A stretch of 64,000 nt of DNA, taken from positions 26,146,001 through 26,210,000 of the forward strand of contig JAWHQI010000004.1 of the NCBI GenBank assembly GCA_033032865.1, read 5' to 3'. The stretch is from Dactylorhiza incarnata. Lineage: Eukaryota; Streptophyta; Magnoliopsida; Asparagales; Orchidaceae. How positions within the stretch are numbered: the stretch's first letter is position 1; each line of letters starts with the position of its first letter. Below are positions 2,608-58,061 of this stretch, piece after piece. The notes under the pieces were generated by a model that saw only the letters and a list, made by a program, of their open reading frames with translations, was not told the origin of the DNA and did not search any database. The position numbers were made by a program, and so were the translations under genes.

Positions 2608-3772
2608 TGTTGGATCGGTAGGCGCCCTTAGAGGGTGGTGAATAAGGGTTTTAAAAACTTATATTATATTTTGGAATACTTGAAATAATAAGAGATTGAA
2701 ATAGTGATTTAGAATGAAGATCTAAATTGTTTTATAATGAAAGAGTAAGAAATAAACAATTTTGAGAAATGAAGAGTAAATCAATTTCATTACAAAAAGA
2801 GACATGAATATTATTGATAAAAATTGATTACAAAACTAGATTTCTATGACGCTAGAAATCAAAGGCAAATAAGTGAAAAATCCCTTTTTGTTTTCTATAC
2901 TGACTCGTATCCCCACGAACCAGTGGCCCTAGCCTATCCTTCCCCGGATACGCCCTCAAGCCGCTCTAGCCAACCCTTCCCCGGATATGGCCTCGAGCAC
3001 CCCCCTAAACCTAACCTAGATCTAGTCTCCAACACGAGGCGAATTTCTGCCCTAAGTCCTACCCAGACCTAGTAGCCAACACGAGGCGAGTTCACTAAAC
3101 GTTTACAAGAAAAGATGTGAAATAAATAACAACAATATAAAAACTCCCTATATGGATCTCTTAGAGAAGTAGATGAAGACCCACAGAGTATGATCGTAGT
3201 CGATGCGGTCTTTCATCACGATGATGACACGTGTTGAAATCTTCTCCACAGATCTGCTTAAGCCTTCATGGATTTGTGGGAGTATCTATCTGAACCTTCC
3301 TCTATATGATGTGGCACGAAGCTATGGAATTTAGGAGTGGAATACAATGAAGAAGATGGATCCAAGGGGTCCTTTTTATAGCCTCAGCGCTAGCGACCAC
3401 GCTACCGCTACCGCCGGCGCTATCCCATATTAGGACATATTCTGCGCGGGAGAATCTTCAATCTGAGGAAACATTTCCGCCTTGCCGTCTATGCTCCGCG
3501 CTACCGCCTGCGCTATCCGCTACCGCCAGGCTCTAGCTCCTTCTAAATGTACTCCCGGGATTGCGCTAATCATCGCTAGCGCCGGGCGCTAGGTGCTACC
3601 TCCGGCGCTCGTAGGCATGTTGGAATTATTGGCCTAATTTTGGGGGCAACCTTCTTATGTCATCCTTGAGTCATATGGACCTTATTTCCTGCACACTTAA
3701 ACACACAAGACGAAATACATATAGGATTTGTTATTCTCAAACCTAGGAGATGCCGAAGACCATGTTCCAACA
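2608..3772 (-). repeat. E1 3' LTR
   Basis: Pairs with 8894-10054. On the minus strand it starts TGTTGGAACATG (U3 side, plus 3772) and ends GATCCAACA (plus 2608). A TATA box (TATAAAAAGG, 3372-3380) sits directly beside GC-rich GCTAGCGC-type palindromes at 3381-3625. Confidence 0.93.
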
Positions 3773-6235: not shown

Positions 6236-6268
6236 GATACTCGAGCTAGCGCTAGCGCGGCAAACAGT
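6236..6268. repeat. Internal palindromic module, E1
   Basis: CGAGCTAGCGCTAGCGCG is self-complementary around AGCGCT. It sits about 1.1 kb from the gag end, at the position where E2-E5 carry comparable modules, and uses the same words as the E1 LTR palindromes. Confidence 0.6.
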
Positions 6269-13638: not shown

Positions 13639-14972
13639 TGTTGGATCTTGTGGCGCCCTTAGAGGGGGGGGGGGGGGTGAATAAGGGTGTGTTTAGAATA
13701 TAATTTTTTACTTAAGAATTTTCAAAACAAATTTTGCTTTTCTAAAAATCACTTATAAAAATTTACAAACTATGAAATTTTTGAATTAGATCAAACACAA
13801 ATTTCTAAGTTAGAGACTAATCAACCAAATTTGCAATTAAAGAAAAAGGCATAATATTTTAATCATGAAATTCTCATACAATAGAAATGATATTAACAAT
13901 GCTTAAGATCAAGGCATAAATAAGATAATAAACTTTTGACAATTTTTGTTTACCAATCCTTCTCCCAAGGATCGGAAGGCTATCACTTGTCTTTCACTAG
14001 ACCAAGCCCAAGCCTATCCTCTAGATCTTCCCAAGATCTAGACGTAGCACACAAGGCCACGATTTCCCACCAAGCCACGCAAGGACTTGGACGCTCCGCA
14101 CAAGGAAGCAATTTTCCCCTAAGCCACGCAAGGACTTAGACGTCACGCACAAGGAGACGATTTCCCTACCAATACAAAGTGAAATGTATATAAATGAAAA
14201 TACAAAATGAAATGAAGAACTCCCTAGAAATTCAGATCTCTGAAAGGAAGGTTGAAGCCTCGAGATGATCGTTGATGTAGAAGTGCGTCCGATCTCATCT
14301 TCAATCTCAAACCTTCTCAGCACAAATGGGAGTTCATGAGGTTCTGGAGCTCTCTGGTTCGTATGAACTCAGGAAAGGACTTAGAATCTTCAAAGCTCTG
14401 AATGCACGAACAAAACGAACCCATTTATAGATTTTCACTGTCGCCTGGGCGACATCGCTGTCGGAATTCCGACAGCCCCAAACTGCTGTTCGTCGTGCTG
14501 TCGTGCTGGCAATTGCTGTAACTTCTGCACTGTCGCCTGGGCGACATCAAGTGTCGGAATTCCGACAGCGCCAAACTGCCGTTCATCGTGCTATCGTGCG
14601 GTCAGTTGCTGTAACTTCTGCGCTGTCGCCTGAGCGACATTGAGTGTCGGAATTCCGATAGCTCCTCTTCATTTTTGCTGTCCGAAACTTCTCCAGACTG
14701 TAGATTGAGTCGTTCTCATCTCCGAAATGGGGTGGACCGTTCTGTAACTCTTCCTGGATTGAAAGTTATGGCCATTTTAAGATCAGCACACAAAACTCAT
14801 CCTTTTGCTTTTTCTAATGTGTACACACTCTTGGATCATGCCCATGAACAAGGACTTGTCTCCTCATTGAACCTGTACAACCTGGACACTATAAACACAC
14901 AAAAGACTAGATCAAATACAACATGGTATTTGTTATTCTCAAACTAAGAGATGCGGAACATAGGCTCCAACA
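13639..14972 (-). repeat. E2 3' LTR
   Basis: 1334 bp. A 14-G run (13664-13677) sits between CCCTTA and TAAGGG. TATA box CTATAAAT at 14423-14430. A tandem array at 14438-14664 lies just upstream of it in the minus-strand sense. Confidence 0.93.
14438..14664. repeat. E2 LTR tandem palindrome array, about 2.5 units of 92 bp
   Basis: Units start at 14438, 14530 and 14623. Each has hairpin arms GTCGCC/GGCGAC and the 16-bp perfect palindrome TGTCGGAATTCCGACA, or a near copy. The block abuts the TATA box. The other E2 LTR has the same array at 21502-21728. Confidence 0.85.
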
Positions 14973-20708: not shown

Positions 20709-22036
20709 TGTTGGACTTGTGGCGCCCTTAGAGGGGGAGGGTGAATAAGGGTGTGTTTAGAATATAATTTTTTACTTGGGAATTTTCAAAACAAATTTTG
20801 CTTTTCTAAAAATCACTTATAAAAATTTACAAACTATGAAAATTTTGAATTAGATCAAACACAAATTTCTAAGTTAAAGATTAATCAACCAAATTTGCAA
20901 TTAAAGAAAAAGGCATAATATTTTAATCATGAAACTCTCATACAATAGAAATGATCTTGACAATGCTTAAGATCAAGGCATAAATAAGATATTAAACTTT
21001 TGACAATTTTTGTTTACCAATCCTTCTCCCAAGGATCGGAAGGCTATCACTTATCTTTCCCTAGACCAAGCCCAAGCCTATCCTCTAGATCTTCCCAAGA
21101 TCTAGACGTAGCACACAAGGCCACGATTTCCCACCAAGCCACGCAAGGACTTGGACGCTCCGCACAAGGAAGCGATTTTCCCCTAAGCCACGCAAGGGCT
21201 TAGACGTCACGCACAAGGAGACGATTTCCCTACCAATACAAAGTGAAATGTATATAAATGAAAATACAAAATGAAATGAAGAACTCCCTAGAAATTCAGA
21301 TCTCTGAAAGGAAGGTTGAAGCCTCGAGATGATCGTTGATGTAGAAGTGCGTCCGATCTCGTCTTCAATCTCAAACCTTCTCAATACAAATGGGAGTTCA
21401 TGAGGTTCTGGAGCTCTCTAGTTCGTATTAACTCAGGAAAGGACTTAGAATCTTCAAAGCTCTGAATGCACGAACAAAACGAACCCATTTATAGATTTTC
21501 ACTGTCGCCTGGGCGACATCGCTGTCGGAATTCCGACAGCCCCAAACTGCTGTTCGTCGTGCTGTCATGCAGGCAGTTGCTGTAACTTCTGCGTTGTCGC
21601 CTGGGCGACATCGAGTGTCGGAATTCCGACAGCGCCAAACTGCCGTTCGTCGTGCTGTCGTGCGATCAGTTGCTGTAACTTCTGCGCTGTCGCCTGGGCG
21701 ACATTGAGTGTCGGAATTCCAACAGCTCCTCTTCATTTTTGCTGTCTGAAACTTCTCCAGACTGTAGATTGAGTCATTCTCATCTCCTAAATGGGGTGGA
21801 CCATTCCGTAACTCTTCCTAGATTAAAAGTTATGGCCATTTTAAGATCAGCACACAAAACTCATCCTTTTGCTTTTTCTAATGTGTACACACTCTTGGAT
21901 CATGCCCATGAACGAGGACTTGTCTCCTCATTGAACCTGTACAACCTGGACACTATAAACACACAAAAGACTAGATCAAATATGACACGGTATTTGTTAT
22001 TCTCAAACCAAGAGATGCGGAACATAGGCTCCAACA
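20709..22036 (-). repeat. E2 5' LTR
   Basis: 1328 bp, pairs with 13639-14972. The G-run is only GGGGGAGGG here against 14 G in its partner. TATA box 21487-21494; palindrome array 21502-21728. Confidence 0.93.
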
Positions 22037-29576: not shown

Positions 29577-29584
29577 TATAAATA
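29577..29584 (+). promoter_or_regulatory. TATA box upstream of the gene fragment at 29624
   Basis: TTTATAAATAGGGGG, followed by a CT-rich leader. Confidence 0.5.
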
Positions 29585-29623
29585 GGGGGTGAGTGGGTAT
29601 GTATTTATTATGCTATCCGCGAC

Positions 29624-30142
29624 TTGCTCTCTCTTCTTGTGAGTATCATCAATTTCCTTCTTCCTCGCCTTTTGATACTCGCTCTCTCTTCTCGCCTTTT
29701 TCTCCTCACGGTGACTGATGAAGCAGCTGCTCGGTGGGCTGGTCATGAGAGGAACATCATCGCAGCGATGTTCAAGAAGTCAATCTCAACGCAGAGGGAT
29801 CTGGATGACTTTAAGGAGAAGTTCTTGCCTGAAGGATACTCAGCCAGGATTCCTCGCCAAAGCGAGCGACTAAACACCTTCCTAGAGGGCGAGATCATCT
29901 TCCCAATCTGCCACTTTGAGGTTGGCCCACAACTTCCCCTGTGGTCAGTGTTTCGCCAGATTTTTCACTACTATGGTATAGTCTCGCTCATAAAACCCGA
30001 ATGACATGATGATGATCGTCGGGTTCCCTGCTTTCTGCGAGAAGAGAAGATCACCTTCAAATATTCCATCTTAGGAGAATATTCTCATTCATGGTGACCA
30101 GCAAGGGAGTCATCTTCCTGTGCAGCCATATTTGCACACTGG
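29624..30142 (+). pseudogene. N-terminal piece of a 'putative gypsy-type transposon' protein (PF04195-like)
   Basis: Open from 29624; the first ATG is 29768 (MFKKSISTQRDLDDF). The segment EIIFPICHFEVGPQLPLWSVFRQIFHYYGI has the FP..F.....LP....QI..YYGI layout I associate with PF04195. Small indels after 29995 break the frame; words such as GFPAFCE and MVTSKGVIFLC remain in shifted frames. The gene is cut at 30142 by an LTR fragment. No transposase catalytic function is implied; these are plant repeat-associated proteins of unknown role. Confidence 0.5.
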
Positions 30143-30269
30143 TGTTGGAACATGTTTTCCACATATCTTGGTTTGAGAATAACAAATCCCATTCTATTTG
30201 ATCATACTTGCCATGTGTTTATAGTGTGCAGGAACTTTAGCTCTCAAGCCCCTATAAGTACGAAAAAGA
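30143..30269 (+). repeat. Plus-strand fragment of a copia LTR start
   Basis: TGTTGGAACATG followed by TTTGAGAATAACAAATCC: the U3 start of an E-type LTR, in the orientation opposite to E1-E5. E3 inserted into it about 127 bp in, after aaaga (30265-30269). Confidence 0.7.
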
Positions 30270-31901
30270 TGTTGGATCTTGAGGCGCCCTTAGAAAGGGG
30301 GGTGAATAAGGGTTTTATAAACTTTAAACTTTAACAGAAAACTTTTGATATTTTGGTCGCAGTTAAATCAAAAGTAAAGAGATAATGAAATTAGAAATGA
30401 AATCAATTTTATTAAACAAGAAAAGAAATGATTATCATTTATAAAATTGATTACAAAATCTGATTTCAATGACGCTAGAAATCGAAGCGAATAATATGAA
30501 AACCCTTTTTGTTTTCTATACCGACTCGTATCCCCACGAACCGGTTGGCTTTAGCCGATCTCTCCCCAGATACGACCTCAAGCCGCTCATGCTAATCTAT
30601 CACCAGAAAGGCCTCGAGCACCCCCTAGATCTACTCCCTAGACCCAGTCGCCGTGTGGCAAATTCCTCCCTAAGTCCTACCTAGACCTAGTCACCGTGTG
30701 GCAAATTCCACCTAGTCCCCACAAGGCCCTAGTCACCGTGTAAAGAGTTCCTCTACCGAACAAAAGAAATAAAGGATACAATTTGAAAGTACAACAAAAC
30801 ACAAACAAAAAAACTCCCTCAAAAGAAGAACTTGATGTCGATGTAGATGTGATCGTATTGGTCTTCAAGTTCTTTGCGTTCACGAATGTTGACGGAGTTC
30901 TTCGGGCTGCTTGGAGAAGGCTCTCACGAGTGCTCTGAATAGATGGCTCCAATCCCTTCTGTATCAACAAGCAACAACGGAGGAGGCGCACGTATTTTTA
31001 TAGATTCATCCACTACCGCCTACAGTAGTACTACCGCCCCGTGTTATCCACATAAGACTACGAAGCACACGGGTCGTGGTAGTTTAGGCAACATTTTGAG
31101 CGCCAAACACTAACGCGCCGCGGTAACGCTAATGACCCGCGTTAGCGAGATTTCCTTCCTTCATCCACAATCTTCTTCCAAATCCGCTCCTCAATCAATT
31201 GCAGACGAGATGTTTCCGAAAAGCTATCGTCGGGCGTTAGACCTAACGCGCTGCGATAGTACATGCCAAACATAGCTACCCGTCGACATTCCTTTTTCTC
31301 CACTGTTTCTTTGTCGTCAAATGATTCAATTTATGTTAGCGCCAACGATAGTGCTAACGCTCTGCGGTAGAGCACATTTCTTTTCATCTGGCGCATCTTT
31401 GTTGAACCGGCCTTATATTTCGTCAATCGAATTTTCATCTAACGGGATTCGGCTTTCGTCGATCGAAAATTCATCGAACGCAGTGATAAGCATTTCATCG
31501 AGCGCAGCTTTCGTTTCTTCGAACGAACACTTGCGCCAACGGTAGTGCTAACGCGTCGCGGTAAGACATACATTTCGACGAGCGTTGGGATAGAACATGC
31601 AGATCATCGAACGGAGCTCACAGTTCGTCGAACGGAGCTCTCAGTTCATCGAACGGAGCTCTCAGTTCGTCGAACGGAGCTTTCAGTTCGTCGAACGCCA
31701 GTTTCCTTCTCAGCGGTTTCCTTCTCAGCGGTTTGTTAGCGCTAGTGGTAGTCATAACGCTGCGCGGTAGTAACAAAAACATATTTCCATGGAGATTTGA
31801 AAGCACTGAATCCTGCATACTATAAACACAAAAAAAGTATGATCAAATACAATAGGATTTGTTATTATCAAAGCAAGAGATGCGGAAAACATGTTCCAAC
31901 A
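30270..31901 (-). repeat. E3 3' LTR
   Basis: 1632 bp. TATA box 30995-31002. Palindrome and repeat block 31003-31780: TAACGC/GCGTTA words, then CGTTCGATGAACTG-type repeats, with four near-identical CGTCGAACGGAGCTCTCAG units at 31610-31690. Confidence 0.9.
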
Positions 31902-31920
31902 AACTCCCCCTTTTGATAAT
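31902..31920 (-). promoter_or_regulatory. E3 polypurine tract
   Basis: Minus-strand TATCAAAAGGGGGAGTT adjoining the LTR. Confidence 0.85.
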
Positions 31921-32523
31921 AACAAATCCCCTTAGAAAGAAATAATTCAATTGATAGGAATTGTGTTTATAATAGAGATAAGCATGAAATTTAAGACATG
32001 TGCATATGCTCCCCCTAAATGAATGCTCCCCCTAAGTGAATGCTCCCCCTACAACAAAAACTTCCTATGAACTTTACTCCCCAAACATGTGAATTTCTTT
32101 CAAATTTATTCTCCCCCTTTTGGTATTATCAAAAGAGGGTGGAGAGAAAGTTAAACGTTAATGTGTGCCATAAATGTGTAGAGAGGGAATGAACATGATA
32201 AAGAGTTAAACACTTAGGAAAAATACAATATATAAGTGTGAAAAAAAAGTGAAGAAATTGTCATAAAGAAACCACTTGTTGGGAAAAACATATTCATGAT
32301 CGAGCGTACAAGTAGTAAAGAGGTGGAAAGCATGAAGAAATATATTTTTGAAGAGAACATCTATATAAGAATGGTGAAGCATAGTAGATGCTTAAGAGTT
32401 TTAGGTATAACAAAATTAGATGTTGTAGCAATTTAAGTTCACAAAGGATTTTGCTTTATAAAAGTTTTAAGCACAGAAAAGGTAATGATTTCCAAGTAAC
32501 CAATCTACCCAGACAATATGACT

Positions 32524-32591
32524 ACACCCTAGCCCCGTACTAAGTGACGGATGGGCATGAGGAGCAGCATACATGCCGTAGGTTGGGGTGT
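32524..32591. other. Conserved 68-nt structured block, E3 copy
   Basis: ACACCCTAGCC pairs with GGTTGGGGTGT at the ends; inner stem GGCATG/CATGCC. Same length as the E1, E2 and E4 copies. Confidence 0.6.
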
Positions 32592-33574
32592 TAGTCCCAT
32601 ATGCAAACACTAGACAAAACTCACCCTAGCACTCTTTCCCCCCAATGCCTCGCAAGGCCCCACTAGAACCCTTCCCGGTTAAGGACAAGACATGACTTAG
32701 AGGCCATGTAATCTAATGTCTACAACCCTACGCCCCCGCTATGGTGAGATATGAAGTCAAGGATAATAATTATTGAAAACATTTAAGCGATTTAAATCTA
32801 ATGATAGGTACATAGCCTATGGATTTATATTTGAATTTGAAGTTTTTTAAACAAACAACTCTCGTAGCTATTTTGAAATCGATTAATGAATTAGAGTTTT
32901 AGCATTACAATATTTTTCATGTTTAGAGCAGTGTTTTTAGCATATAAATTTACATTGAAATAGATCAGAGTTTTTAGCATAAAAGTGATATATGTGTTAT
33001 AATAACCAATATAAATTTTACCAAGTAAGTCTACCATTTGTTAAAAAAAGGAATTTTGATATTTAATACTTGATATAAGCATGAAAGCGCAAGGTAAAAA
33101 TATATGGTGATGATGCAGAAGACTTATAGAGATACAAGAAAGCATATTTTTTGTAATCATGATTATTCATAAGAAGAAATATGAGTTAAATTAAAAAGGA
33201 AGATGTTTTTTGCAAATCACGTTATTGTAAAATCTTTTGACAATAAAGTAACCAAGCATGAAAGAAATATATCAATAAGAGACTACTACAATGTTATTGT
33301 AATTCACAAATTCAAGACATACCAAACATTGTAGAGAGCATGCTAGGTTATCTAGTGCATTTCATAAATAAAGAGTAGTATAAAATTAGCATTAGAATCC
33401 AATACTCATGACAAGAAGTGTTATGGAAGATAATGATGTGCACATAAGTGTATTTAGAATAGAGTACACAACTGTTTTAATAAAAAATACAAGAAATATG
33501 TAAAGTAAAAAGCACAATAAAACACAAATAGTTTTACTTCCACAAACTTCAATGCACAAAAAAATGTACAACTA

Positions 33575-33862
33575 CCAAGGTGCTTTGCATACACAATGCT
33601 CATTAAGACTTATCAGGGTGCAATGTAGTGCTTGGGGGATCACATATTTTATTTAATTTAAATGTTGAGACTAGTGATCCGGTGTACTTAAGAGTAAGTG
33701 GTTTTTATTTTGAAAGAAAGATATGGTTTGCACAAGATACCTTATTATTCTTTCCAAGGTGCTCAACCTCTTATTAAGACTTATCAGGAGGTTCAAGTAG
33801 TGCTTGGTGGAGTTATCTTTGTCACTTTATTTTATGATTTTTTGTTTTATACAAAGTTCTCT
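33575..33862. other. Four-hairpin domain, E3 copy
   Basis: A 33575-33635, C 33637-33680, B 33754-33807, D 33809-33862. Hairpin B has lost ACAATGC from its loop, but the stem arms remain. Confidence 0.6.
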
Positions 33863-34685
33863 GAATACACTTGTTTTGCAAACCAATATAATTTATGAAA
33901 ACATAACCACTTTTCTTAACTTTTAAAAGTGCAAACAAAGGTAGTGTAGGTAAGATACTTGTGCAATTTTAATTCATTGTACTTATACAAAACATACACA
34001 AGCATTCTTAGATTAAACACATAAGTAGACAATGCCAAAATAAGTGAGTGAATAAATACCATTATCAAACATAAAACATTTACTCATACTTAGAGGCATG
34101 CTAAGCTTGGCTCTACACAACTTTTACAATATAATTTATGCACATGGGTTTAGAAGTACCAAGGCATGATAATGACAATGTTCAAAGTAGTTTGAATATA
34201 TGAATCACAACATTGTAGAAAGGCTTAAATGATAGAAGAAATCATGCTTGATTTTCACAATAAAGTCCATACAGTATTTTTGATATTTTTGAGAAATAAT
34301 TTTAATTTAAAGTTTGAACTCATATAATTTGATCTTGGACTTCCCGAGGTCTACCCTGTGAGAGGTTCACCTGGTACTAGGTGATGTGATGGGATGATAG
34401 ACCAAATCACCCTTTCGCAAGATACAGGTAATAGAAAAGTTAAGTTCAAAATAATAATTTTTGATACTTGTTTTTATTTTATATTTTAGTATTTGATTTT
34501 TGCATATAGGAATAGAAATCAAACAAATAACCATAAAAAAAATATTTTTTGTAATTTGGCTTTTGTAATTTTGTATTTTAATTTTAAAAAAATTTACAGG
34601 GAGAATTGCGAAAATGACTAGTACAGATAAGATAATATATTTTTAGTGATTTTTCAGAATTTTAAAATTATAGAAAATCGGATGC

Positions 34686-34726
34686 TTGAGCTAGTGCCGG
34701 CGTTAAGTCCTAGCGCCATTGTTAGC
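34686..34726. repeat. Internal palindromic module, E3
   Basis: GAGCTAGTGCCGGCGTTAAG ... TAGCGCCATTGTTAGCTC. The GAGCTA/TAGCTC ends pair. Same position as the module in E4. Confidence 0.6.
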
Positions 34727-35468
34727 TCATAGAGAGTGCTTGTTTTAATCATATAGCCTAGATTTTCTTTGATTTTGCTTCAGATTTTTCTTAATTATGT
34801 TTGTGCAATGTAAGGCCTGAATAATAAAGTGATGAGACGAGAAGAAATCGCAAGAAGTTGTGGAGGTTAAAATTTTAGTACATGGGTTTCTTATTCATTA
34901 AAGCTCCATATTCATTAGACCTTAATTCTTGAGTTTTGCACAACATATGCATGAGTGAAATGATCATAAATAAGTGAAATAATATTCATGCAATTTTTTT
35001 AATTCCAATTTGACATGATTATGATTAAACATACTAGGGGTAATAAAAAATGATGCAAATATATTAAATAACTTGCGCATTTTATAAATCTAGTTTAATA
35101 CCCCTAAAATAGACCTTTTGAATCCATTTTGACACTTATTTCATTTAGTCTTAGTAATATCATATGACAAATTTAGTTTTTCAAATTTTATAAGACTTTT
35201 AGGAAATGGATTTAGAAGGATAAAAATAAAAAGGATAAGTAGATCACTTGAAAAATGATATGACTTTTTATTCAACTTTATTCAATTTGATTTATTTATG
35301 AATTTTGGTTTAATATGTGAAATTCATATCACATGTTATATAAAGTGATCTTATCATGATGGCTCAAAGAAATAAAAGCAAAAACAAAAAGGAAATAAAG
35401 CACATCATGAAGTAGAGAGTTGATATTTCATTTTTAATTGATTTCTACTTCATGCAAATGATAGGAGA

Positions 35469-36400: not shown

Positions 36401-38130
36401 TGTTGGATGTGTAAGCGCCCTTAGAGGGGGGGGGGGGGGGGTGAATAAGGGTTTTAAAATTTCAGAGATTATAAGAGAAAATAATTCTCAGATACTACCG
36501 CCAGCGGTAGTGTTAACGCTCGACGTTAGCAACAGTGAGAATACTTTTACGTTTGAACAATGAGAATCAAAGAGCATTAATCATAGATGAAGAAATAAAC
36601 ATATTTTCATTAATCATCAAATCGAAATACATATGTTTACAAAAACTTTTCCAATAACGCTTGGAAAGAGGCGACAAATGAAAAAGTCTTTTTCTTTTTC
36701 TATACCGACCCTTTTCCCAAGGAACAGTTGGCTTTAGCCCGTCTCTCCCCAGACAAGGCCTCAAGCCGCTCTAGCCAATCTATCACAGAAAAGCCTCGAG
36801 CACCCCCTAGATCTACTCCCTAGACCCAGTCGCCGTGTGGAGTATTCCTCCCTAAGTCCTACCTAGACCTAGTCGTTGTGTGGAAAATTCCCCCTAGTCC
36901 CCCCGCAAGGCCCTAGTCGCAGTGTGGCGAGTTCCTCTACCGAACAAAAGACATAAAGATTACAATTTGAAAAGTAAAACAAGACATAAACTAGAAACTC
37001 CCTCAAAAGTAGAACTTGATGTCGATGTAGATGCGATCGTATTGGTCTTCAAGTTCTTTTGCATTCATGAACGTTGACGGAGTACTTCGGGCTGCTTGAA
37101 GAAGGCTCTCACGAGTTCTCTGAATATATGGCTTCAGTTCCTTCTATCTCAGCAAGTCGTAATGGAGGAATCACCGCTCTTTAAATAGATTCGACAGCTA
37201 CCGCCTGCGCTAGTACTACCGCCCCGCGATAGTGACACGACGCGCATACGGATCGTGGCAGTTAAGGAAACTCCTGAGCACAAACGGTTGTGACAGCCTA
37301 GCGTGCCGCAGTAACACTATCGCCCCTCGATAGTGCGATTTCCTTCCTTCAGCCAATATCTCTTGCCAAATTTGCCCCTCAATCAACTGCAGACGGGATG
37401 TTTCCAAAAGCTACCGCCGGGCGTTAGACCTAACGCGCCACGATAGTACTTGCCAAACATAGCGACCCGTCGACATTCCATTTTCTCCACTTTCCTTTCT
37501 GTCAATAATTTCCAAAAATGTTAACGCCAGTGTCAGCGCTAACGCTCCGCAGTAGATCATTTCATCTGGCGCATCTTCGTCAAGCTGACCTCAACTTTCG
37601 TCGATCTCAATCTGGTTTGTCGAACATCATCATTTTATTCGAACACCATTTTGTCTTTAGGACGCTAGCGCCAGCGTTAGTGCTAACGCTCCGCGGTAGA
37701 GCAGCAGTTCATCGATCGGGCCTTAGCTTTTGTCGATCGCCGAATGCCCTGATATGAATTTCGTCGAACGAGATTCCGCATTCGTCGTTCGTCGAACGGA
37801 GTACCGAGTTCGTCGAATCGAGTTCGTCGAATCGAGTTCGTCGAATGGAACTAGTGCGCCGCGGTAATGCAGACGCCCTGCTGTAGTGCATACAATTTGT
37901 TGAACGCCAGCTTGCATCTCAGCGGCTTCCCATCTCAGCGGTTTTGTCTCGGCGGTTGTTAATGTTAGCGCCAATGGTAGAGGTAGCGCAGCGCGGTAGC
38001 AACAACAACACAGCACATTGGAGTTTTGAAAACACAGAATCCTGCATACTATAAACACAAAACAAGTTTGATCAAATACAATAGGATTTGTTATTGTCAA
38101 ACCAATAGATGCGGAAAGCATGTTCCAACA
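36401..38130 (-). repeat. E4 3' LTR
   Basis: 1730 bp; matches 62684-64000 closely, including the CTACCGCCAGCGGTAG palindrome 36494-36509. G-run of 16 at 36426-36441. TATA-like TATTTAA at 37181-37187, with palindromic block 37194-38010. Confidence 0.92.
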
Positions 38131-40370: not shown

Positions 40371-40415
<45 letters not shown>

Positions 40416-41711
40416 GGGGGGGGGGGTGAATTAGGGCAATTTAAAACTTTGATATTTTTTGTAACAAACGAAACAATATATGAATATAGAGACAAATAAT
40501 TGAATTTAAAAACAAGATTTTATTTCATCAAAGATAATGAGTAGAAATAATTCCAATAAAGCTTGGAATCAAAGGCTTACAATTAATAAAATCTCTTGTC
40601 TCTTTTCACCGGTCCTTCTCCTAAGGACCGGTTGGCTATAGCCTATATCTCCCAGATAAAAACACTAGTCTCTCCCTAAATCAAATCTTGATCTAGACGC
40701 AGCACACACGACGTCGATTTTCTACCAAGCCACATAAGGACTTGACACCGCACACAAGATGATGATTTACCCTAGACCACACAAGGATCTAACACCACAC
40801 ACAAGGTGATGATTTCCCCTAAGCCTCACACGGACTTAGACGCCGCACGCAAGACGACGATTACTACAACGATTATAAGATGAATGTAAATATAAATGAA
40901 ATACAAATTAAAAATCCCCTTTAGAATTTCTGGACCAAAGCAGCAAAGAACCCTTGAGAAAGTCTCCTTGGAACGCGTGTACAATTTTCAGCTTCGCTCT
41001 CTCTTTTCTTCTTCAAGGATGGGGATTTTCGTTCTCTGGAGCTCTCTGGACGATAACACTCTGGAAGAAGGCTTGAAAGTCTGAAGGAATGAAATCCACG
41101 AAGTTCTGGACCCTTTAAATAAAAAAGAGCTGTCGCCGTCCGATAGCTAGGTATCGTTAGAATCCGATATCTCCAAAGGCTGCCACGTGTCCCACTAATT
41201 CGACGTTTCTGCGCGGAGTTGAGGTCGTGGTTGAGACGTGGGCTGTCGGAAATCCGATATTACTATCGGAAATCCATTAGCTTGCGTAGCTGCTGCACGT
41301 CGTATTATTGCGGGAAGATCGTGCACTGTCGGATATCCGATATCACTATCGGAAATCAGTTAGCTTGCGTAACTGCTGCACGTCGTATAGTTGCGGGAAG
41401 ATCGTGGGCTGTCGGATATCCGATATCACTATCAGAAATTCGTTAGCTCTAAACCGCTGGGAAGAAATCGTGCGTCGTCAGAAATCCGTTAGCTCTCAAC
41501 TGCTGGGAAGAAATCGTGCGCTATTGGAAATCCGTTAGCTAGCTGTCGGAAATCCGATAGCTCCAATTTCTGGAAAATTGGTATTTTGCTCCAATTGCAA
41601 ACATGTTATCCTTGCACCTGTTATCTGCACACCAATAATCAAAAATAGGATCAAATACATTCGGGATTTGTTATTCTCAAACCGGACGAGTGCGGAACGC
41701 ATGCTCCAACA
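40345..41711 (-). repeat. E5 3' LTR
   Basis: 1367 bp. It has an expanded G-run (40372-40412, then CA, then 12 more G) where its partner has 6 G. TATA-like TATTTAAA at 41114-41121; palindrome array 41129-41564. Confidence 0.92.
41129..41564. repeat. E5 LTR tandem palindrome array
   Basis: Three to four units of about 85-95 bp, each with TCGGATATCCGA or a close variant, then CACTATCGGAAATCCGTTAG and GCTGCACGTCGTA. Mirrored in the other LTR at 57379-57814. Lies beside the TATA-like box. Confidence 0.85.
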
Positions 41712-43059: not shown

Positions 43060-43115
43060 ACTGTCGGATTTCTGATAGCTAGATGTTGCCATCCGACAGC
43101 TCGGAAAAGATAAAA
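43060..43115 (+). promoter_or_regulatory. Putative promoter of the E5 antisense gene
   Basis: A palindromic module (CTGTCGGATTTCTGATAG, then CCATCCGACAGC) is followed at once by AAGATAAAAGG, a TATA-like box. The layout copies that of the LTR promoters. A leader of about 90 nt ends in a donor AAG/GTGAGAT (GT at 43210-43211). Confidence 0.4.
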
Positions 43116-43209
43116 GGATGCGTTTCGTCATTTGACTGACACCTCAGTTCAGTGTTAGGCAAAATTCCGAGATCTAGAGCTCCAGGTGACGGAAAACTTC
43201 AGATCTAAG

Positions 43210-43773
43210 GTGAGATATGTGGATTTGGCAAGTATTGTTTAAATTTCTCCAATTGTTTTGTGATTTTGATAATCCTCTTTGTTTTCATGGAGTTTTGTGA
43301 AGATAATTTGTAGAATGTTTAGTAGATCTAGACATTTTAGATCTTGGTGTTTATAAGAGATTTAGATCATGTGATTTTGAAGTAAAATGAGAAATTTTTG
43401 TTGTATTTTTGTGTTGAAACATGATTTTCCTTTCTTTCTTGTTGTTTATGTGGAGATCTAGAAGTTCATAGGTATTAGCTTTATAGGAAAAAGATGATGA
43501 CCAAAAAAAATTTGAGGTGTTATAGGAAGAAGATGATGAATAGTGACTTTCACCAAAATTTTGATTTTTCAAAAATAATATAAATGTTGAAGAATATTTT
43601 CTGTGTGAAAACTGTGTGGATTTGTGATAGGAAGATTTTTTGTGAAAGAAAAAAAAATCAGAAGCATAAAATTTTAGCTATCGGATATCCGACAGAGGGG
43701 TATCGGATATCCGACTGGTCCATTTTGTTGTTGTTTGATTTTTTTTTAAAAAAATTTTTTATGCCTCATGCAG
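43210..43773 (+). other. Putative intron of the E5 antisense gene
   Basis: Donor AAG/GTGAGAT at 43210 and acceptor TGCAG/AT at 43772-43773, 564 nt, T-rich near the 3' end. It contains palindromic modules at 43679-43716 with TATCGGATATCCGAC twice. Upstream readable codons from 43584 would be intronic under this model. Confidence 0.35.
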
Positions 43774-43775
43774 AT

Positions 43776-44726
43776 ATGTCTTCCAGTTGGAGATCGAGAA
43801 GGGGTGATTCTAGAGACGCTCATTCTTCTTATCAAAGTTTCCCGGGAATAGAAAAGGCCCAAATCGGAATATCAAAAGTTGTGGAATTTGATCTCCCCCT
43901 GCATGAACGAGTCTATTATATGCTTGTTGAGGCAGGTATACTCTCGGTCATTATCCAAGACATTTTCTCCTCCTTTTTAGTCCGAGAATTTTATAATCAT
44001 CTTGAGGATCCGTCATATGCCGATTTGAATGGAGGAGTTAGATCCAAAATTCAAGGCCAATATGTGGAGATCACTCCATTTGATTTAAGAAGTGAATTTG
44101 GAATAATGGAGAGTGAGAATGTGTTGGACATAGTGGAAAATTATAGACTTGAGAGAGATTGGACCCTAATGAATATGTCGTTGCATGGAAATTCCACAAA
44201 AAACCTTATAAACACTATGACGACATTGACAGACGATGCTCGTCTTGTTCAGGATATACTTAGGCACACGATTATGTTGAAGTCCGGTGATACCCATAGT
44301 ATTACGGCTCAACTTAGTCTTGTGACTTACTATATAGTGGAGAACGAATTATTTGATGTGACCGATCTTCTTTTGTCTATGATTCGCTATACATTTCGCC
44401 TCAAAAGTCCTGAATGGAAAAAGGCACACACTCTCCCGTTGGGTGCGATTATCCAGCATATTCTATTCAAGAAATATACATGGATAGATCAAAGCTTTTA
44501 TGTTGGAGATTGTGTTCTGGAAATATATCAAATGACTTGTATAAAGGGTAAGAAAAATCAAAGGAAGCCGCCTACTATGGAAATGAGAGAGCTTCCTATT
44601 GCACGTGGAGGGTCTATGCGGGAGGCACTCGATTCTTTCCAAACTAGGTTGGATAGACATATCGATGATTTTCAAGAGCATAGAAGGTCCTTTGAAGAAC
44701 ATAAAGTAGAGGTGAAGAAAGATTGA
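43776..44726 (+). CDS. Antisense ORF in E5, plant mobile-element protein of PF20167-like type
   Basis: 316 residues from ATG 43776 (MSSSWRSRRGDSRDA) if the intron model holds; the frame is open from 43584. The segment LVREFYNHLEDPSYADL...IQGQYVEITPFDLRSEFGI and the later THSITAQLSLVTYYIVE...LLLSMIRYTF resemble the 'putative plant transposon protein' family (PF20167), whose function is unknown. The C-terminal part is charged and helical. The TGA at 44724-44726 may be a mutation, since the same frame continues to 44942 with a basic, Ser/Glu-rich tail. It lies between RNase H and the 3' LTR, on the strand opposite to gag-pol. Confidence 0.6.
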   Translation: MSSSWRSRRGDSRDAHSSYQSFPGIEKAQIGISKVVEFDLPLHERVYYMLVEAGILSVIIQDIFSSFLVREFYNHLEDPSYADLNGGVRSKIQGQYVEITPFDLRSEFGIMESENVLDIVENYRLERDWTLMNMSLHGNSTKNLINTMTTLTDDARLVQDILRHTIMLKSGDTHSITAQLSLVTYYIVENELFDVTDLLLSMIRYTFRLKSPEWKKAHTLPLGAIIQHILFKKYTWIDQSFYVGDCVLEIYQMTCIKGKKNQRKPPTMEMRELPIARGGSMREALDSFQTRLDRHIDDFQEHRRSFEEHKVEVKKD

Positions 44727-44942: not shown

Positions 44943-44955
44943 AAAAGACTTCTGG

Positions 44956-45002
44956 GAGCTATCGCCATCCGACATCCTACTGTCGCCATCCGACAGCTGC
45001 CC
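44956..45002. repeat. Internal palindromic module, E5
   Basis: GAGCTATCGCCATCCGACAT, then ACTGTCGCCATCCGACAGCT. It has the same frame of words as the E4 module (GAGCTANCGCC ... ACTNNCGCC ... GCT), but the core is that of the E5 LTR (CGCCNTCCGAYAG). Confidence 0.65.
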
Positions 45003-45216: not shown

Positions 45217-45711
45217 TCATTGAAAAATGTCTAGGATTCCTAATTCTAGCCTAAGCATAGAAAAACGGGAATCCGGTAACGGTTTAGTGAATATGTCCGC
45301 TAGTTGTGAATCCGTTCCTATGAAATTGATTTTTACATTACCCTTCTTAATATGATCTCTTATAAAATGATGTCGGACATCTATATGCTTAGATCTAGAG
45401 TGTAATACGGGATTATTAGTTAAGTCTATAGCACTTTTATTGTCACACTTTAATTCTACACTACTTTTTTGCATGCCAAAGTCTTCTAATGTTTGTGACA
45501 TCCAAAGAGCTTGGGCACAACAACTACCTAGTGCAATATATTCGGCCTCGGTAGTAGAGAGGGCAACAGAATTATGTTTCCTACTCGACCATGATATAAG
45601 TGAAGGGCCGATAAAATGACAAGTGCCACTAGTTCTTTTCCTATCTAAAGAACATCTCGCATAATCTGAATCCGAAAAGCCATGAAAAATAAAGGAATCA
45701 TTATGAGGATA
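45217..45711 (-). pseudogene. pol: E5 RNase H domain
   Basis: Open from just after the TAG at 45714-45712 to the stop at 45219-45217. Copia RNase H landmarks in order: GFSDSDYARC, RKRTSGTCHFIG, STTEAEYIALG, ELKCDNKSAIDL and ADIFTKPL. The acidic residues D, E and D are kept. It is separated from RT only by a stop that replaces Trp of the usual LGLWYP. RNase H removes the RNA strand during reverse transcription. Confidence 0.85.
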
Positions 45712-46705
45712 CTATAATCCTAATTTAGATGTTCCTATAAGATATCGAAAGATGCGTTTCACCGCTTTTAAATGTGACTCTTTAGGATTAGCCTGAAATC
45801 TAGCACATAAACAAATGGCAAACATAATGTCAGGTCTAGATGCGGTTAAATATAATAAAGATCCTATCATGCTTCTATAAAGGGTTTGGTCAATTGAAAC
45901 TCCACTTTCATCTTTTCCTAATTTTAGTGAAGCACTCATAGGAGTGTTTGCATGCTTAAGATTGTCAAATCCAAATCTTTTTAACATATCATGAATATAT
46001 TTGGATTGACATATAAAAATACCATCATGTTTTTGTGTAATTTGAAATCCTAGAAAATATGAAAGTTCTCCTACCATGCTCATTTCAAATTCAATTTTCA
46101 TAATTTGAACTACTTCATTACACAACTCTTCATTAGTGGCTCCAAAAATAATATCATCAACATAAATTTGCAAAATAACTAAATCATGACCAATTTGCTT
46201 AATGAAGAGTGTACAATCCACACTTCCTATTTTATAATCGTGCTTTAATAAATATTGAGTTAATCGATCATACCAAACACGAGGCGCTTGTTTTAATCCA
46301 TAAAGCGCTTTATCTAATTTATAAACATAATTTGGATATTTCTCATTTATAAAGCCAGGGGGTTGTTCTACATAAACCTCTTCTTTTATATACCCGTTTA
46401 CAAATTCGGTTTTGACATCCATTTGATATAATTTAAATCTTTTAAAACAAGCAAATGCAAGAAATATCCTAACCGCTTCTAATCTTGCTACGGGTGCAAA
46501 AGTTTCATCAAAATCTACCCCTTTAATTTGTGCATAACCTTTTGCAACTAATCTGGCTTTATTTCTAACAATTCTAGATTCATTATCCAATTTATTTTTA
46601 AAAAACCACTTAACTCCAACGACAGGACGATTTTTGGGTCGTTCTACAAGATTCCAAACCTTATTACATTCAAATTGATTAAGTTCTTCATTCATAGCTA
46701 AAAAC
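45712..46705 (-). pseudogene. pol: E5 reverse transcriptase domain
   Basis: Copia RT from [15 protein letters not shown] to [15 protein letters not shown]...GTSKLGL. Landmarks: [57 protein letters not shown] and the catalytic YVDD at 46164-46153. The catalytic box is intact. The N-terminal side is cut at about 46705 by G2; codons upstream of it read G2 LTR. About 60 residues that normally lie between the integrase tail and this point are absent on both sides of G2. Confidence 0.88.
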
Positions 46706-48142
46706 CACCAATGATATTGCGCACGACCACCGGCCGTGCGCCGCTGTTCGTGCGTACTTAACATCAATTTTATGAGTTCTGTTTCGACCAGTGCGCACGA
46801 CCACCTACGATAGTGCGCACGACCACCGGTCGTGCGCCACTGGTCGTGCGAACATTATATTTTATAAATTTCTTACATTGCAGGCTCCGCCCAGGCAGGC
46901 GCACGATCACAGGATTCTAGTGCGCACGACCACTGGTGGTGCGCCAATGACCGTGCGCACTGTTTATTCCAGTGCCTATAAATATTCCTGCTCGCGATTT
47001 AGGTCGGAGCTCCACATTTCTTCCGCTTCAGTCCGCCGTTTTCTCGCTCTAGAGCCCCGATTTTGCCCCTCCATCGCCGCCCACCATCTGGAGGTGCTCC
47101 GGGATTGTTCTTCATGCCAATCTTGAGCCGGAGCTTCCTCTCGGCCTCCTCCTTCATCCTAGAGCTTCAAGGAAGGTTTAGCCGCCATCGCCATCAAGTA
47201 AGAGGAAGTTTGCAACCTCTACCGGATCGTGACACGAAGAAGACGGGCTCATTGGAGAGTAGTGACAACTCTCTCTACCCCGGACGTAGTTGCGGACCGA
47301 GCTTGGACGCGGATTGACAACCCGGCGATTCCAACCGTGAATCTCCAACGAGCCTTCAGATTCGGTCGATTTCTTGCCTTGTTCTTCTCTTATTGATGCG
47401 TTTGTAGCTAGATCTCTCATGTATTGATGATGAACACTATGAATCGTGCTTGTAATCTTAATTTCATGTCTATGTGAAGTTATATTTTGTTCATATGTGT
47501 ACGAGGTGCACCACCATCCATCCTCCTTCCCGCTGTCACGTTCGTGTGCCGCACTAGCAATTGCTAGTGGCGTGCTTGTCGACGAGGTGCTTGCGACCCT
47601 CATCCATATGCCTACTCTTCCATCCGCCTAGCGAAGCGTGGCATAGCGGCCCGTGTAATCCATTCCGACTCCGCCGGTGCGAACCATTCCATCCGCTTGC
47701 CAACTCTTCCATCCGCCTAGCGAAGCGTGGCATAGCGGCCTGTGTAATCCATTCGCCCAACGAAGCAGTGCGCTCAAGGCCTGCACAGTTCAACTCCGCT
47801 TGCCTACTCGTCCATCTGCCCTTGCGACGCAGCGCGCTCAAGGCCTGCCTAGTCTCCATCCCGCCAAGCGAAGCACTGCATAGCGGCATTGCATATGAGT
47901 AGTTGTAGTTGTTTTCTTTTATTTTCCAAAAGCCAAATCACCACATTTCCGCATTCCATCCGACTCAAGGACTTCGATCTCAAATCCTTCCTCGAACGTT
48001 AACTCCACCTTACTGTGTTCCTTGAGAGATTCGATACTCCGGGATTACTCCTCGTTTTATATTACTTGAACGATCGGTACACTGCCGTTTCGTGCCGCAG
48101 TCTTGCTACCGCCTATAGCGGTGTGCGAGATTTGTGCCACCA
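46706..48142 (+). repeat. G2 5' LTR, left end truncated
   Basis: Matches 51709-53146. Palindromes at 46720-46945 include a 10-bp arm pair GCGCACGACC/GGTCGTGCGC (46815-46837) with a 3-nt loop. TATA box 46977-46984. Tandem CCATCCGCCTAGCGAAGC units at 47612-47890. Confidence 0.88.
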
Positions 48143-51342: not shown

Positions 51343-53146
51343 TGATGAGTCCCAAATATATACACATTTATGGACTCATCTGGGCCGATTTTCTAGTCTA
51401 TGCACTTCACTTTAGACATGTTTTCACTCATATTTGACACTCCATGCTAAGTGCACCTCTAGGCCCGTTTTTGGTGTTATTTCATGTTCTTCATTTTTAG
51501 TAGTTTTCATGGATTGTTAAGTGCCACTTTCAGTGGCTGGATTCGTGGTTGTGCTGGAACAGGAGTCGTGCGGGTGTTCCCGGTACAATTATGTACAGGA
51601 ACACTGCACACGATCACTGTTTCTATTGCGCACGACCACTGGTCATGCGCCGCTGATCGTGTGCACTTAACCCTATTTTTTGAGTTCTGTCTCGGACAGT
51701 GCGCACGACCACCAATGATATTGCGCACGACCACCGGCCGTGCGCCGCTGTTCGTGCATACTTAACATCAATTTTATGAGTTCTGTTTTGACCAGTGCGC
51801 ACGACCACCTACGATAGTGCACACGACCAACGGTCGTGCGCCACTGATCGTGCGAACATTATATTTTATAAATTTCTTACATTGCAGGCTCCGCCCAGGC
51901 AGGCGCACGATCACAGGATTCTAGTGCGCACGACCACTGGTCGTGCGCAAATGACCGTGCGCACTGTTTATTCCAGCGCCTATAAATATTCCTGCTCACA
52001 ATTTAGGTCGGAGCTCCGCATTTCTTCCGCTTTAGTCCGCCGTTTTCTCGCTCCAGAGCCCCGATTTCGCCCCTCCATCGCCTCCCACCATCTGGAGGTG
52101 CTCCGGGATTGTTCTTCACGCCAATCTTGAGCCGGAGCTTCCTCTCGTCCTCCTCCTTCGTCCTAGAGCTTCAAGGAAGGTTTAGCCGCCATCGCCATCA
52201 AGTAAGAGGAAGTTTGCAACCTCTACCAGATCATGACACGAAAAAGACGGGCTCATTGGAGAGTAGTGACAGCTCTCTCTACCCCGGACGTAGTTGCGGA
52301 CCGAGCTTGGACGCGGATTGACAAAACGGTGATTCCAACCGTGAATCTCCAATGAGCCTTCAGATTCGGTTGATTTCTTGCCTTGTTCTTCTCTTATTGA
52401 TGCGTTTGTAGCTAGATCTCTCATGTATTGATGATGAACACTATGAATCGTGCTTGTAATCTTAATTTCATGTCTATGTGAAGTTATATTTTGTTCATAT
52501 GTGTACGAGGTGCGCCACCATCCATCCTCCATCCCGCCGTCACGTTCGTGTGCCGCACTAGCAATTGCTAGTGGCATGTTTGTCGACGAGGTGCTTGCGA
52601 CCCTCATCCGTATGCCTACTCTTCCATCCGCCTAGCGAAGCGTGGCATAGCGGCCTGTGTAATCCATTCCGACTCCGCTGGTGCGAACCATTCCATCCGT
52701 TTGCCTACTCTTCCATCCGCCTAGCGAAGCGTGGCATAGCGGCCCGTGTAATCCATTCGCCCAAAGAAGCAGTGCGCTCAAGGCCTGCACAGTTCGACTC
52801 CGCTTGCCTACTCGTCCATCCGCCCTTGCGACGCAGCGCGCTCCAGGCCTGCCTAGTCTCCATCCCGCCAAGCAAAGCACTGCATAGCGGCATTGCATAG
52901 GAGTAGTTGTAGTTGTTTTCTTTTATTTTCAAAAAGCCAAATCACCCCGTTTCCGCATTCCATCCGACTCAAGGACTTCGATCTCAAGTCCTTCCTCGAA
53001 CGTTAACTCCACCTTACTGTGTTCCTTGAGAGATTCGATACTCGGGGATTACTCCTCGTTTTATATTACTTGAACGATCGGTACACTGCCGTTTCGTGCC
53101 GCAGTCTTGCTACCGCCTATAGCGGTGTGCGAGATTTGCGCCACCA
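51343..53146 (+). repeat. G2 3' LTR
   Basis: Starts TGATGAGTCCC and ends GCGCCACCA, 1804 bp. Palindromic GCGCACGACCA/TGGTCGTGCGC modules at 51600-51965 stop just before TATA box 51981-51988. Tandem CCATCCGCC units at 52616-52894. Confidence 0.9.
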
Positions 53147-56595: not shown

Positions 56596-56632
56596 AATTC
56601 CAGGTGGTTAAACCTTATAAGGAATTAACCTG

Positions 56633-56643
56633 CTCTGATACCA
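56633..56643 (-). promoter_or_regulatory. E5 primer binding site, tRNA-iMet
   Basis: Minus-strand TGGTATCAGAG, two bases from the 5' LTR. Confidence 0.9.
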
Positions 56644-56645
56644 CT

Positions 56646-57961
56646 TGTTGGATGTTGTGGCGCCCTTAGAGGGGGGTGAATAAGGGCAATTTAAAACTTT
56701 GATATTTTTTGTAACAAACGAAACAATATATGAATATAGAGACAAATAATTGAATTTAAAAACATGATGTTATTTCATCAAAGATAATGAGTAGAAATTA
56801 TTCCAATAAAGCTTGGAATCAAAGGCTTACAATTAATAAAATCTCTTGTCTCTTTTCACCGGTCCTTCTCCTAAGGACCGGTTGGCTATAGCCTATATCT
56901 CCTAGATAAAGACACTAGCCTCTCCCTAAATAAAATCTTGATCTAGACGCAGCACACACGGCGGCAATTTTCTCCCAAGCCACATAAGGACTTGACACCG
57001 CACACAAGACGATGATTTAGCCTAGACCACACAAGGATCTAACACCACACACAAGGTGATGATTTCCCCTAAGCCTCACACGGACTTAGACGCCGCACGC
57101 AAGACGACGATTTCTACAATGATTACAAGATGAATGTAAATATAAATGAAATACAAATTAAAAACCCCCTTTAGAATTTCTGGACCAAAGCAGCGAAGAA
57201 CCCTTGAGAAAGTCTCCTTAGAACATGTGTACAATCTTCGGCTTCGCTCTCTCTTTTCTTCTTCAAGGATGGGGATTTTCGTTCTCTGGAGCTCTCTGGA
57301 CGATAACACTCTGGAAGAAGGGTTGAAAGTCTGAAGGAATGAAATCCATGAAGTTCTGGACCCTTTAAATAAAAAAGAGCTATCGCCGTCCGATAGCTAG
57401 GTATCGCCAGAATCCGATATCTCCAGAGGCTGCCACGTGTCCCACTAATTCGACGTTTCTGCGCGGAGTTGAGGTCGTGGTTGAGACGTGGGCTGTCGGA
57501 TATCCGATATCACTATCGGAAATCCGTTAGCTTGCGTAACTGCTGCACGTCGTATTGTTGCAGGAAGATCGTGTACTGTTGGATATCCGATATCACTATC
57601 GGAAATCCGTTAGCTTGCGTAACTACTGCACGTCGTAGAGTTGCGGGAAGATCGTGGGCTGTCGGATATCCGATATTACTATCGGAAATCCGTTAGCTCT
57701 AAACCGCTGGGAAGAAATCGTGCGTCGTCAGAAATCCGTTAGCTCTCAACCGCTGGGAAGAAATCGTGCGCTATCGGAAATCCGTTAGCTAGCTGTCGGA
57801 AATCCGATAGCTCCAATTTCTGGAAAATTGGTATTTTGCTCCAATTGCAAACATGTTATCCTTGCACCTGTTATCTGCACACTATTAATCAAAAATAGGA
57901 TCAAATACATTCGGGATTTGTTATTCTCAAACCGGACGAGTGCGGAACGCATGCTCCAACA
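56646..57961 (-). repeat. E5 5' LTR
   Basis: 1316 bp, close match to 40345-41711. G-run of 6. TATA-like 57364-57371, palindrome array 57379-57814. Confidence 0.93.
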
Positions 57962-58061
57962 GAAACAAACAATGTTCATAGTAGTTTGAAGGAATGAATT
58001 GTAACATTGTAGAAGGTCTAAATGATGGATTAAATCATGCTTGAGTTTCACAATAAAGTTC

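Follow-up and report, generated by a model that had tools for sequence, protein, structure and literature searches.

Palindromic repeats lying upstream of the LTR TATA box were described in Sireviruses in 2010 as RM boxes, and the factor that binds them was not found (PMC2829016). In Retand elements of the gypsy class, antisense TRP28 ORFs (Transposase_28, PF04195) have suspected regulatory roles, and the antisense gene of the maize element Grande is transcribed from its own promoter, according to the sections of the source consulted (PMC11963269). For the dyad system described below, the closest worked-out logic appears, by analogy and as far as the consulted sections of the source go, to be that of the VANC proteins of VANDAL transposons (PMC5735166). 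What is new here is an antisense gene, in an element called E5 and its relatives, that carries the dyads of its family before its own TATA-like box and mostly at the end of its intron too; in a literature of which most subscription papers were outside our reach, we found none that ties an antisense ORF to RM boxes.

The window, by which we mean the whole 64,000-nucleotide stretch of Dactylorhiza incarnata DNA analysed, is part of a 3.27-Gb genome in 3,184 contigs, and it was compared with two 100-kb blocks of the same genome picked by coordinate, A (L009-L018) and B (L019-L028), whose elements bear these letters. Self-BLAST resolved LTR pairs on the minus strand for E1 (2608-3772/8894-10054), E2 (13639-14972/20709-22036), E4 (36401-37715/62684-64000, the second cut by the window end) and E5 (40421-41711/56671-57961, 96% identity), together with the gypsy pair G2 (46704-48142/51708-53146) and a further pair at 23362-23893/27421-27952; E3 has no paired LTR in the window and its position was assigned by similarity. 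Two inverted 1-kb copies, 89% identical, lie at 10623-11619 and 27952-28940, one of them abutting the end of the 27421-27952 LTR, and a tandem array at 58053-59907 has units of 241-253 bp in both orientations within 2 kb.

E5 is a Ty1/copia element, with Retrotran_gag_2 in 55330-56607 (E 2.1e-29) and RVT_2 in 45715-46854 (E 1.5e-74). E1, E2, E4 and E5 have a tRNA-iMet-type PBS and LTR ends akin to each other, and, as in Sireviruses, the linkers of E1, E2 and E5 contain several PPTs (PPT-like words before the 3' LTR: seven in the stretch of E5 examined, seven in E2, four in E1). The terminal PPT joins the LTR with the AT/TG junction of Sireviruses, as GGGGGAGAT/TG, in E2, E5, B1 and B6, the junction of E2 and E5 reading AAAAGGGGGAGAT/TG, and ends in GAGTT/TG in E1 and B7; with either ending, this pattern has 19,230 exact matches genome-wide and a reversed control has 0. 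The Sirevirus 5' LTR/PBS junction, TGGTATCAGAG, reads tggtatcagag in A1, B1, E1 and E4, with one mismatch in E2. The palindromic boxes upstream of TATA have a CGG-CCG core in E2, E5 and the fetched element L034, and a CGCC-GGCG core in E1, B1, A1 and B6. In E5, the only ORFs of at least 150 aa that lie after the RT frame and before the 3' LTR are the antisense ORF and a 164-aa sense frame (45220-45711, no Pfam match), a threshold that short or broken sense ENV-like ORFs could escape. E1-E5 are related Sirevirus-like copia elements. The LTR pairs, PBS and PPT rule out an identity as VANC-bearing VANDALs, which are Mutator-like DNA transposons.

The E5 3' LTR, delimited by its TGTTGGA start and PPT, occupies 40421..41711 on the minus strand, with U3 starting at 41711 and the low end at or just below 40421; a G run at about 40395-40421, at this low end, is either real or an assembly artefact. 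Its U3 holds an array of dyads (TATCGGA-WW-TCCGACA and related) in 83-bp tandem units at 41114..41564 (minus), and the last dyad, TATCGGACGGCGACA, ends 9 bp before the TATA-like box TATTTAAA at 41114..41121 (minus). In the 5' LTR (56640..57961, minus, low end approximate) TATA lies at 57371 and dyads extend upstream to about 57806. The other copia arrays, all on the minus strand, are those of the E2 3' LTR (14423..14664, TGTCGGAATTCCGACA and TGTCGCCCAGGCGACA in units of about 92 bp, TATA at 14429), found again in the E2 5' LTR (21493..21729), of E1 (3372..3625, TAGCGCC/GGCGCTA class, upstream of TATAAAAA at 3380), of E4 (37181..38010, TATA-like TATTTAAA at 37187) and of E3 (30995..31780, weak, with degenerate dyads). 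The gypsy element G2 has an array GCGCACGACC..GGTCGTGCGC at 51600..51988 on the plus strand, upstream of TATAAATA at 51981.

An earlier note on this DNA had claimed that every LTR family places its own palindromic array right upstream of its TATA box. We counted distinct inverted repeats (arms at least 7, spacer at most 4, GC at least 0.4) against dinucleotide shuffles in 19 LTRs, one per pair, 7 from the window and 12 from the two blocks; this set was drawn up without G3, the TGTAACGCCC LTRs and the older or unclear LTR-like pairs A:45750, B:45558, B:47454 and B:48587. Within 450 bp upstream of TATA boxes that were hand-picked among the top matrix matches, which is a source of bias, there were 17 such repeats vs 1.6 expected, in 11/19 LTRs, and downstream of TATA 2 vs 1.3. 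With arms of at least 6, the figures were 27 vs 5.8 upstream and 4 vs 4.7 downstream. By spacer, the excess was strongest at 0-4 (29 vs 5.8) and spacers of 5-24 were elevated too (58 vs 21.7), A7 entering this count with a different TATA box from the one used in the count by arms and position.

Among the intervals that the note had quoted, and with arms of at least 6, E2 (6 vs 0.21) and E5 (3 vs 0.34) were each matched by 0/300 shuffles, E4 was enriched (3 vs 0.69, p 0.03), G2 (2 vs 0.39, p 0.07) and G3 (2 vs 0.45, p 0.07) were marginal, and four were at chance level, namely E1 (p 0.34), E3 (0.50), the TGTAACGCCC LTR (0.47) and 1130-1668 (0.40). E1 and E4 do contain the copia dyad described below. 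No palindromic word was present at arms of at least 6 in A5, B3 and B5, B2 had one, and all four had none at arms of at least 7. The arrays are therefore real and enriched upstream of TATA, as the note had it, but they are missing from some LTR families, so that "every" has to be given up; the comparison with shuffled sequence that it had proposed does reveal an excess upstream of TATA, although the remaining window is elevated as well (39 vs 15.9 palindromes in 113 tiles), which makes the palindrome background non-neutral. Elsewhere in the two blocks, long GC-rich palindrome clusters occur outside the analysed elements (block A 79055-79285, L016, GGAGATCGCCC...; block B 94609-94760, L028, CCGCACCCC...), and an array of TTCGTCGAACGCAG units lies about 2 kb inside the B6 5' LTR (block B 74848-75308, L026), with similar words in the E3 and E4 LTRs.

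A single dyad, TNNCGCC/GGCGNNA or TNNCGGA/TCCGNNA, underlies the words of the copia group; in it, inverted half-sites (TNNCGCC, TNNCGGA or TNNCGCA) are separated by a spacer of 0-2. Across 21 LTR sequences scanned with this dyad, two of which (A1b and B6b) yielded none, NN was AG, GT, AC, AT or AA in 200/212 half-sites and 31/87 successive dyads were spaced 18-20 bp apart. The spelling is TAACGCC in A1 and B6, TAGCGCC/TACCGCC in E1, B7, B1 and A4, TGTCGCC plus TGTCGGA in E2 and L034, and TATCGGA/TGTCGGA in E5. The idea that the words differ by family is partly correct: the spellings vary, but E1-E5 use a single dyad and E2 and E5 share TCGGA-WW-TCCGA.

A search of the window and the two blocks, on both strands, for a TATA-like box preceded at about 5-18 bp by a dyad with at most one mismatch gave 21 places vs 7, 7 and 8 in three shuffles, adjacent matches being merged in the real count only. 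In 15 of these 21 matches, 9-11 bp separate the last dyad from TATA; 12 of the 15 fall in paired copia LTRs and three (A:64104, B:51468 and B:67159) outside the sequences treated as LTRs, and the remaining six (5, 5, 6, 12, 12 and 15 bp) look like chance. Read by eye, the same geometry is present in 14/14 printed copia LTRs, some of their dyads being degenerate. The G2-type gypsy LTRs (G2, A2 and A6) share a separate word, GCGCACGACC..GGTCGTGCGC, and the distance from the end of their last long palindrome to TATA is 31-32 bp for G2 and A2 and 128 bp for A6; abutment on the TATA box thus describes much of the copia group but not these elements. Convincing internal copies of the G2-type word were absent from the copies examined, which may lack genes. 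The LTRs with the shared GCGCACGACC dyads lie in block A at 22683-35380 (L011-L012) and in the window at 51600-51988. Because E1-E5 form one copia group with common LTR ends, PBS, PPT and dyad scheme, and G2, A2 and A6 have one gypsy word, the clear cases come down to about two independent origins, and for these cases independent convergence among many families can be rejected.

The dyads of the E5 LTR recur inside the element, around an antisense frame that runs opposite gag-pol on the plus strand with its ATG at 43776. Its control region reads, in order, dyads of the E5 word (43060..43102, plus), a TATA-like word picked by eye (GATAAAAG, 43109..43116, plus) lying 10 bases beyond the last half-site, a 5' exon that ends in CTAAG/GTGAG, an intron with two dyads, and CATGCAG/ATATG. 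The putative intron (CAGATCTAAG/GTGAG ... CATGCAG/AT ATG, 43210..43773, plus) is predicted from sequence, its junctions are alike in L034 and several copies of a more distant family that we call AX, and its two dyads, TATCGGATATCCGACA, lie near its 3' end (43675..43715, plus). There follow the ORF of 316 aa (43776..44723, plus, within an open frame at 43584-44726), which resembles PF20167 in divergent form, and, directly 3' of it, further dyads (44955..44998, plus). A second copy, L033, has the full E5 layout, with TATAAAAA as its TATA-like word. In L034, GCTGTCGGAAATTTCCGACAGC-CACTGTCGCCTGGGCGACAGTG stands directly before AAAAATTTAAATAGGG and the identical 44-bp composite returns where the intron ends; the half-sites of this antisense gene are also those of the element's U3, where the last one lies 9 bases before TATAAAAT. 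The AX copies build the layout from TAGCGCC/GGCGCTA words.

Over seven antisense promoters the last half-site lies 8-10 bases before the TATA-like word, these words and the splice sites being read by eye. Boxes occur at promoter and intron in 8/8 copies of the E5 family, and among nine fetched AX copies at the intron in 8/9 (L045 without) and at the promoter in 7/9 (L044 and L054 without); the boxes of block A's broken copy of the gene are mostly degenerate. Half-site columns are more conserved than others (0.954 vs 0.846; 0.939 vs 0.691), a contrast inflated by the selection of these columns for presence in half of the copies.

Family-spelled dyads are also found in coding DNA downstream of gag, in the window at 54930-54968 (minus, in the open frame downstream of E5 gag) and 18773-18804, in block B at 5877-5914 and in block A at 12504-12520. 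They sit at a homologous place after ..CCATGG.TCTG..A.GTT.., where a similar peptide is still encoded, and in E5, B1 and A1, though not in E2, their spelling is close to that of the family boxes. For Sireviruses, an inverted repeat has been stated to lie where gag meets pol (PMC2829016).

Scores of the antisense ORF against PF20167 (Transposase_32) were 22-36 bits (E 1.7e-4 to 7.6e-9), below the curated cut-off of 45 bits, and 7/7 member proteins matched it at E <= 1, which suggests at most a divergent relative. Relation to the TRP28 ORF of Retand-type elements was considered and discarded, no PF04195 match appearing up to E = 1 in the 7 proteins. A search of a large protein database gave no homologue at E <= 0.001, the solved structures no convincing relative (one match at E 0.41), and the AlphaFold model was poor (mean pLDDT 40.7) and unusable for a structure search; a DNA-binding fold therefore stays putative. 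The AX proteins have an Arg-rich C-terminal tail, and the window's E5 copy ends before the matching region: its ORF stops at 44724-44726 and many other copies have longer open frames.

In the own genome, 126 copies scored at E <= 0.001 (8,284 candidates) with 89-100% identity, 83 of them having no stop within the match by our own count. The L034 protein is 61% identical to that of E5 over 262 aa, and the AX proteins (five copies, L042-L046) are 41-47% identical to it. Ka/Ks between the five AX copies was 0.09-0.42, and at most 0.21 in 9/10 pairs; the antisense gene is under purifying selection. Synonymous sites are saturated between families (pS 0.77-0.87). The gene is not in every element, since only one of eight 3' ends fetched at random (L034) matched the antisense ORF and 7/8 had none. 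Among PF20167 genes with high scores from four other elements, the roughly 3 kb upstream contained no inverted repeat of the kind sought in L029 and L030, one in L031 and five unrelated ones in L032, which speaks against the boxes as a general companion of PF20167. L032 has a perfect palindrome of 22 bp, TGCCGGTTCACGTGAACCGGCA, at 2498-2519 in ORF orientation, some 480 bp ahead of the gene.

Spelling agrees between LTR and antisense gene within a family and differs between families with diverged proteins. Of the 10-mers in the control DNA of the antisense genes, the U3 of E5, L034 and AX contained, respectively, 32, 12 and 1 for the E5 gene, 14, 41 and 0 for that of L034, and 0, 0 and 55 for that of AX; E2 and E1 from the window and B7 from block B were part of the U3 sets of L034 and AX, and the stretch taken from L044 (AX) had been widened to cover its box cluster. 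Across 13 elements, the share of internal-site bases covered by 8-mers was 0.585 for the own U3, 0.570 for another copy of the family and 0.209 for other families, several internal sites having first been found via own-U3 words, which favours the own coverage; the 10-mer test and the copies L034, L043, L046 and L038 are for this reason cleaner. Permutation of elements, which are related, reached the observed coverage in 0/20,000 cases (2 with 9-mers), and permutation of families reached the observed trace in 2/120. Consistently with the protein distances, E5 and L034 (61%) share a spelling class and AX (41-47% to E5) belongs to another.

Three spelling classes emerge, {E5, E2/L034}, {E1, B1} and {A1, B6}, the E1 and B1 types being inseparable; with only about three classes and three or four gene-bearing families, few independent events underlie this agreement. 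The E1 internal site, GCTAGCGCTAGCGC (6245..6258, plus), has the spelling class of its U3, and own-U3 coverage is low in L035 (0.23). E2 is an exception, with an internal site (17180-17216) of the TAACGCC (A1) type and a U3 of TGTCGCC/TGTCGGA, as in L034; it is probably a gene-less element whose LTR follows the L034 family.

On balance we lean towards the reading that the arrays are Sirevirus-type RM boxes that would serve as sites for a dimeric trans-acting regulator, with the antisense product as its likeliest binder in a self-regulating, VANC- or Tat-like circuit. Layout, shared spelling and coding constraint are observed; binding, dimerisation, the identity of the binder and the intron are what the sequence suggests. 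A dimer working next to the TATA box would bind the half-sites (TNNCGCC or TNNCGGA), which stand in inverted, tandemly repeated pairs and whose NN and core mark the family. Some members of the copia group have an antisense gene with a putative promoter that repeats this scheme (dyads, then 8-10 bp, a TATA-like box, a 5' exon, and an intron that usually has dyads at its 3' end) and, given this common design, one regulator would act on both promoters. The antisense protein, a divergent PF20167 relative whose AX versions have an Arg-rich tail, is the favoured candidate, since the spelling tracks its families and the sites are present in the control region of its gene. Such a circuit would regulate itself, its specificity would diverge with the family, and gene-less members would respond in trans. 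Activation or anti-silencing seems a little more likely than repression. We hold only tentatively, as a serious possibility just short of probable, the stricter proposal that an opposite-strand regulator binds the family-specific dyad at the LTR and at its own TATA box, so that protein and half-site co-evolve, each family's circuit is insulated from the others and relatives with deletions are driven in trans. Self-encoded regulators are familiar elsewhere: Tax and HBZ of HTLV and Tas of foamy viruses act on U3, Tas also on a second internal promoter, and TnpA of maize Spm acts on the element promoter. These are animal viruses or a DNA transposon, and we compare them by mechanism only.

The same boxes could instead be bound at both promoters by host transcription factors, the antisense protein being otherwise employed and the families using paralogous factors or tolerating different spellings, a reading that we regard as unlikely but deserving of a hearing. 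The boxes include TGTCGG-N4-CCGACA, which we take to be a look-alike of an ARF-dimer site, and GNATATNC inside TCGGATATCCGA, presumably a look-alike of P1BS, the PHR1 motif. RM boxes, moreover, matched mainly stress-related plant sites and no single factor (PMC2829016). Each of these plant motifs, however, fits only part of the families, and a fixed host factor would not force the spelling to agree at several sites per element and to track the antisense-protein families.

It is highly improbable that the palindromes work as hairpins in RNA or single strands, U3 being present at the 3' end of genomic RNA, in RNA processing or as a small-RNA template. Small RNAs are drawn to palindrome clusters of maize Sireviruses, according to the sections consulted of a paper that cites this work (Bousios 2016, cited in PMC10760457), and the excess of inverted repeats does extend to spacers of 5-24. 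It nevertheless peaks at 0-4, which is tight for hairpin loops, and the boxes keep a near-fixed position to TATA; the same is true of the antisense promoter, and there they precede that gene's transcript. Among 212 variable pairs, 90 are not Watson-Crick, and these show no wobble bias because only 3 are G-U as compared with 16 A-C and 40 C-C or G-G. This pairing and the spacer pattern fit half-sites in double-stranded DNA, and small-RNA targeting of the boxes can be a side effect.

We give very little credence to a non-adaptive origin, in which tandem-repeat turnover and palindrome-correcting mutation would make and homogenise palindromes without any binding factor, since, even though the arrays are tandem with variable copy number and palindromes are elevated in the remaining window, the TATA distance is near-fixed across families, the half-site spelling is common to an LTR and an antisense gene about 2 kb apart, and imperfect palindromes are kept as such.

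With regulation by the antisense product as the preferred reading, the better half of the earlier interpretation is the one that invoked VANC-like family-specific binding sites: the boxes recur at a second, internal promoter and co-diverge by family, and an encoded protein is a candidate binder. Its convergence is weaker than claimed, and its process that seeds and converts palindromes is disfavoured by the non-Watson-Crick pairs and the near-fixed TATA spacing. The basic pattern was known in kind, since RM boxes had already been described: these too belong to Ty1/copia elements, are palindromic and tandem with a word per element, lie shortly upstream of TATA and have extra linker copies before another gene, amid several linker PPTs (PMC2829016). 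In Sireviruses the linker copies precede an envelope-like gene (PMC2829016), whereas here they surround the PF20167-like antisense gene, standing at the promoter, in the intron and at the 3' end. Unlike in RM boxes, the core here is CGCC-GGCG as well as CGG-CCG, and the spelling co-diverges with the antisense protein.

The VANC system is alike in logic, with an element-specific short tandem motif in non-coding DNA, introns included, that evolves with the element's protein, but VANDALs are DNA transposons, their motif is YAGTATTAY rather than a dyad, and binding, inferred here, was shown there, in the sections consulted (PMC5735166). Retand elements and gene23 of maize Grande similarly have an antisense gene between pol and the 3' LTR for a predicted DNA-binding or nuclear protein; they are Ty3/gypsy with PF04195, and the parts of the source consulted mention no binding word that recurs in the LTR (PMC11963269).

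These works left open both which factor binds RM boxes and what antisense ORFs do in plant LTR elements, the latter as seen in the sections consulted (PMC2829016, PMC11963269), and the shared boxes join the two questions. They also provide a testable pair, one protein and one 18-bp dyad, with the families as natural variants of specificity. If the stricter proposal is true, it would answer what binds Sirevirus RM boxes and provide a retrotransposon counterpart of VANC and of the retroviral transactivators, and a class of DNA that is very abundant in this plant genome would regulate itself by private switches that co-evolve in a VANC-like manner.
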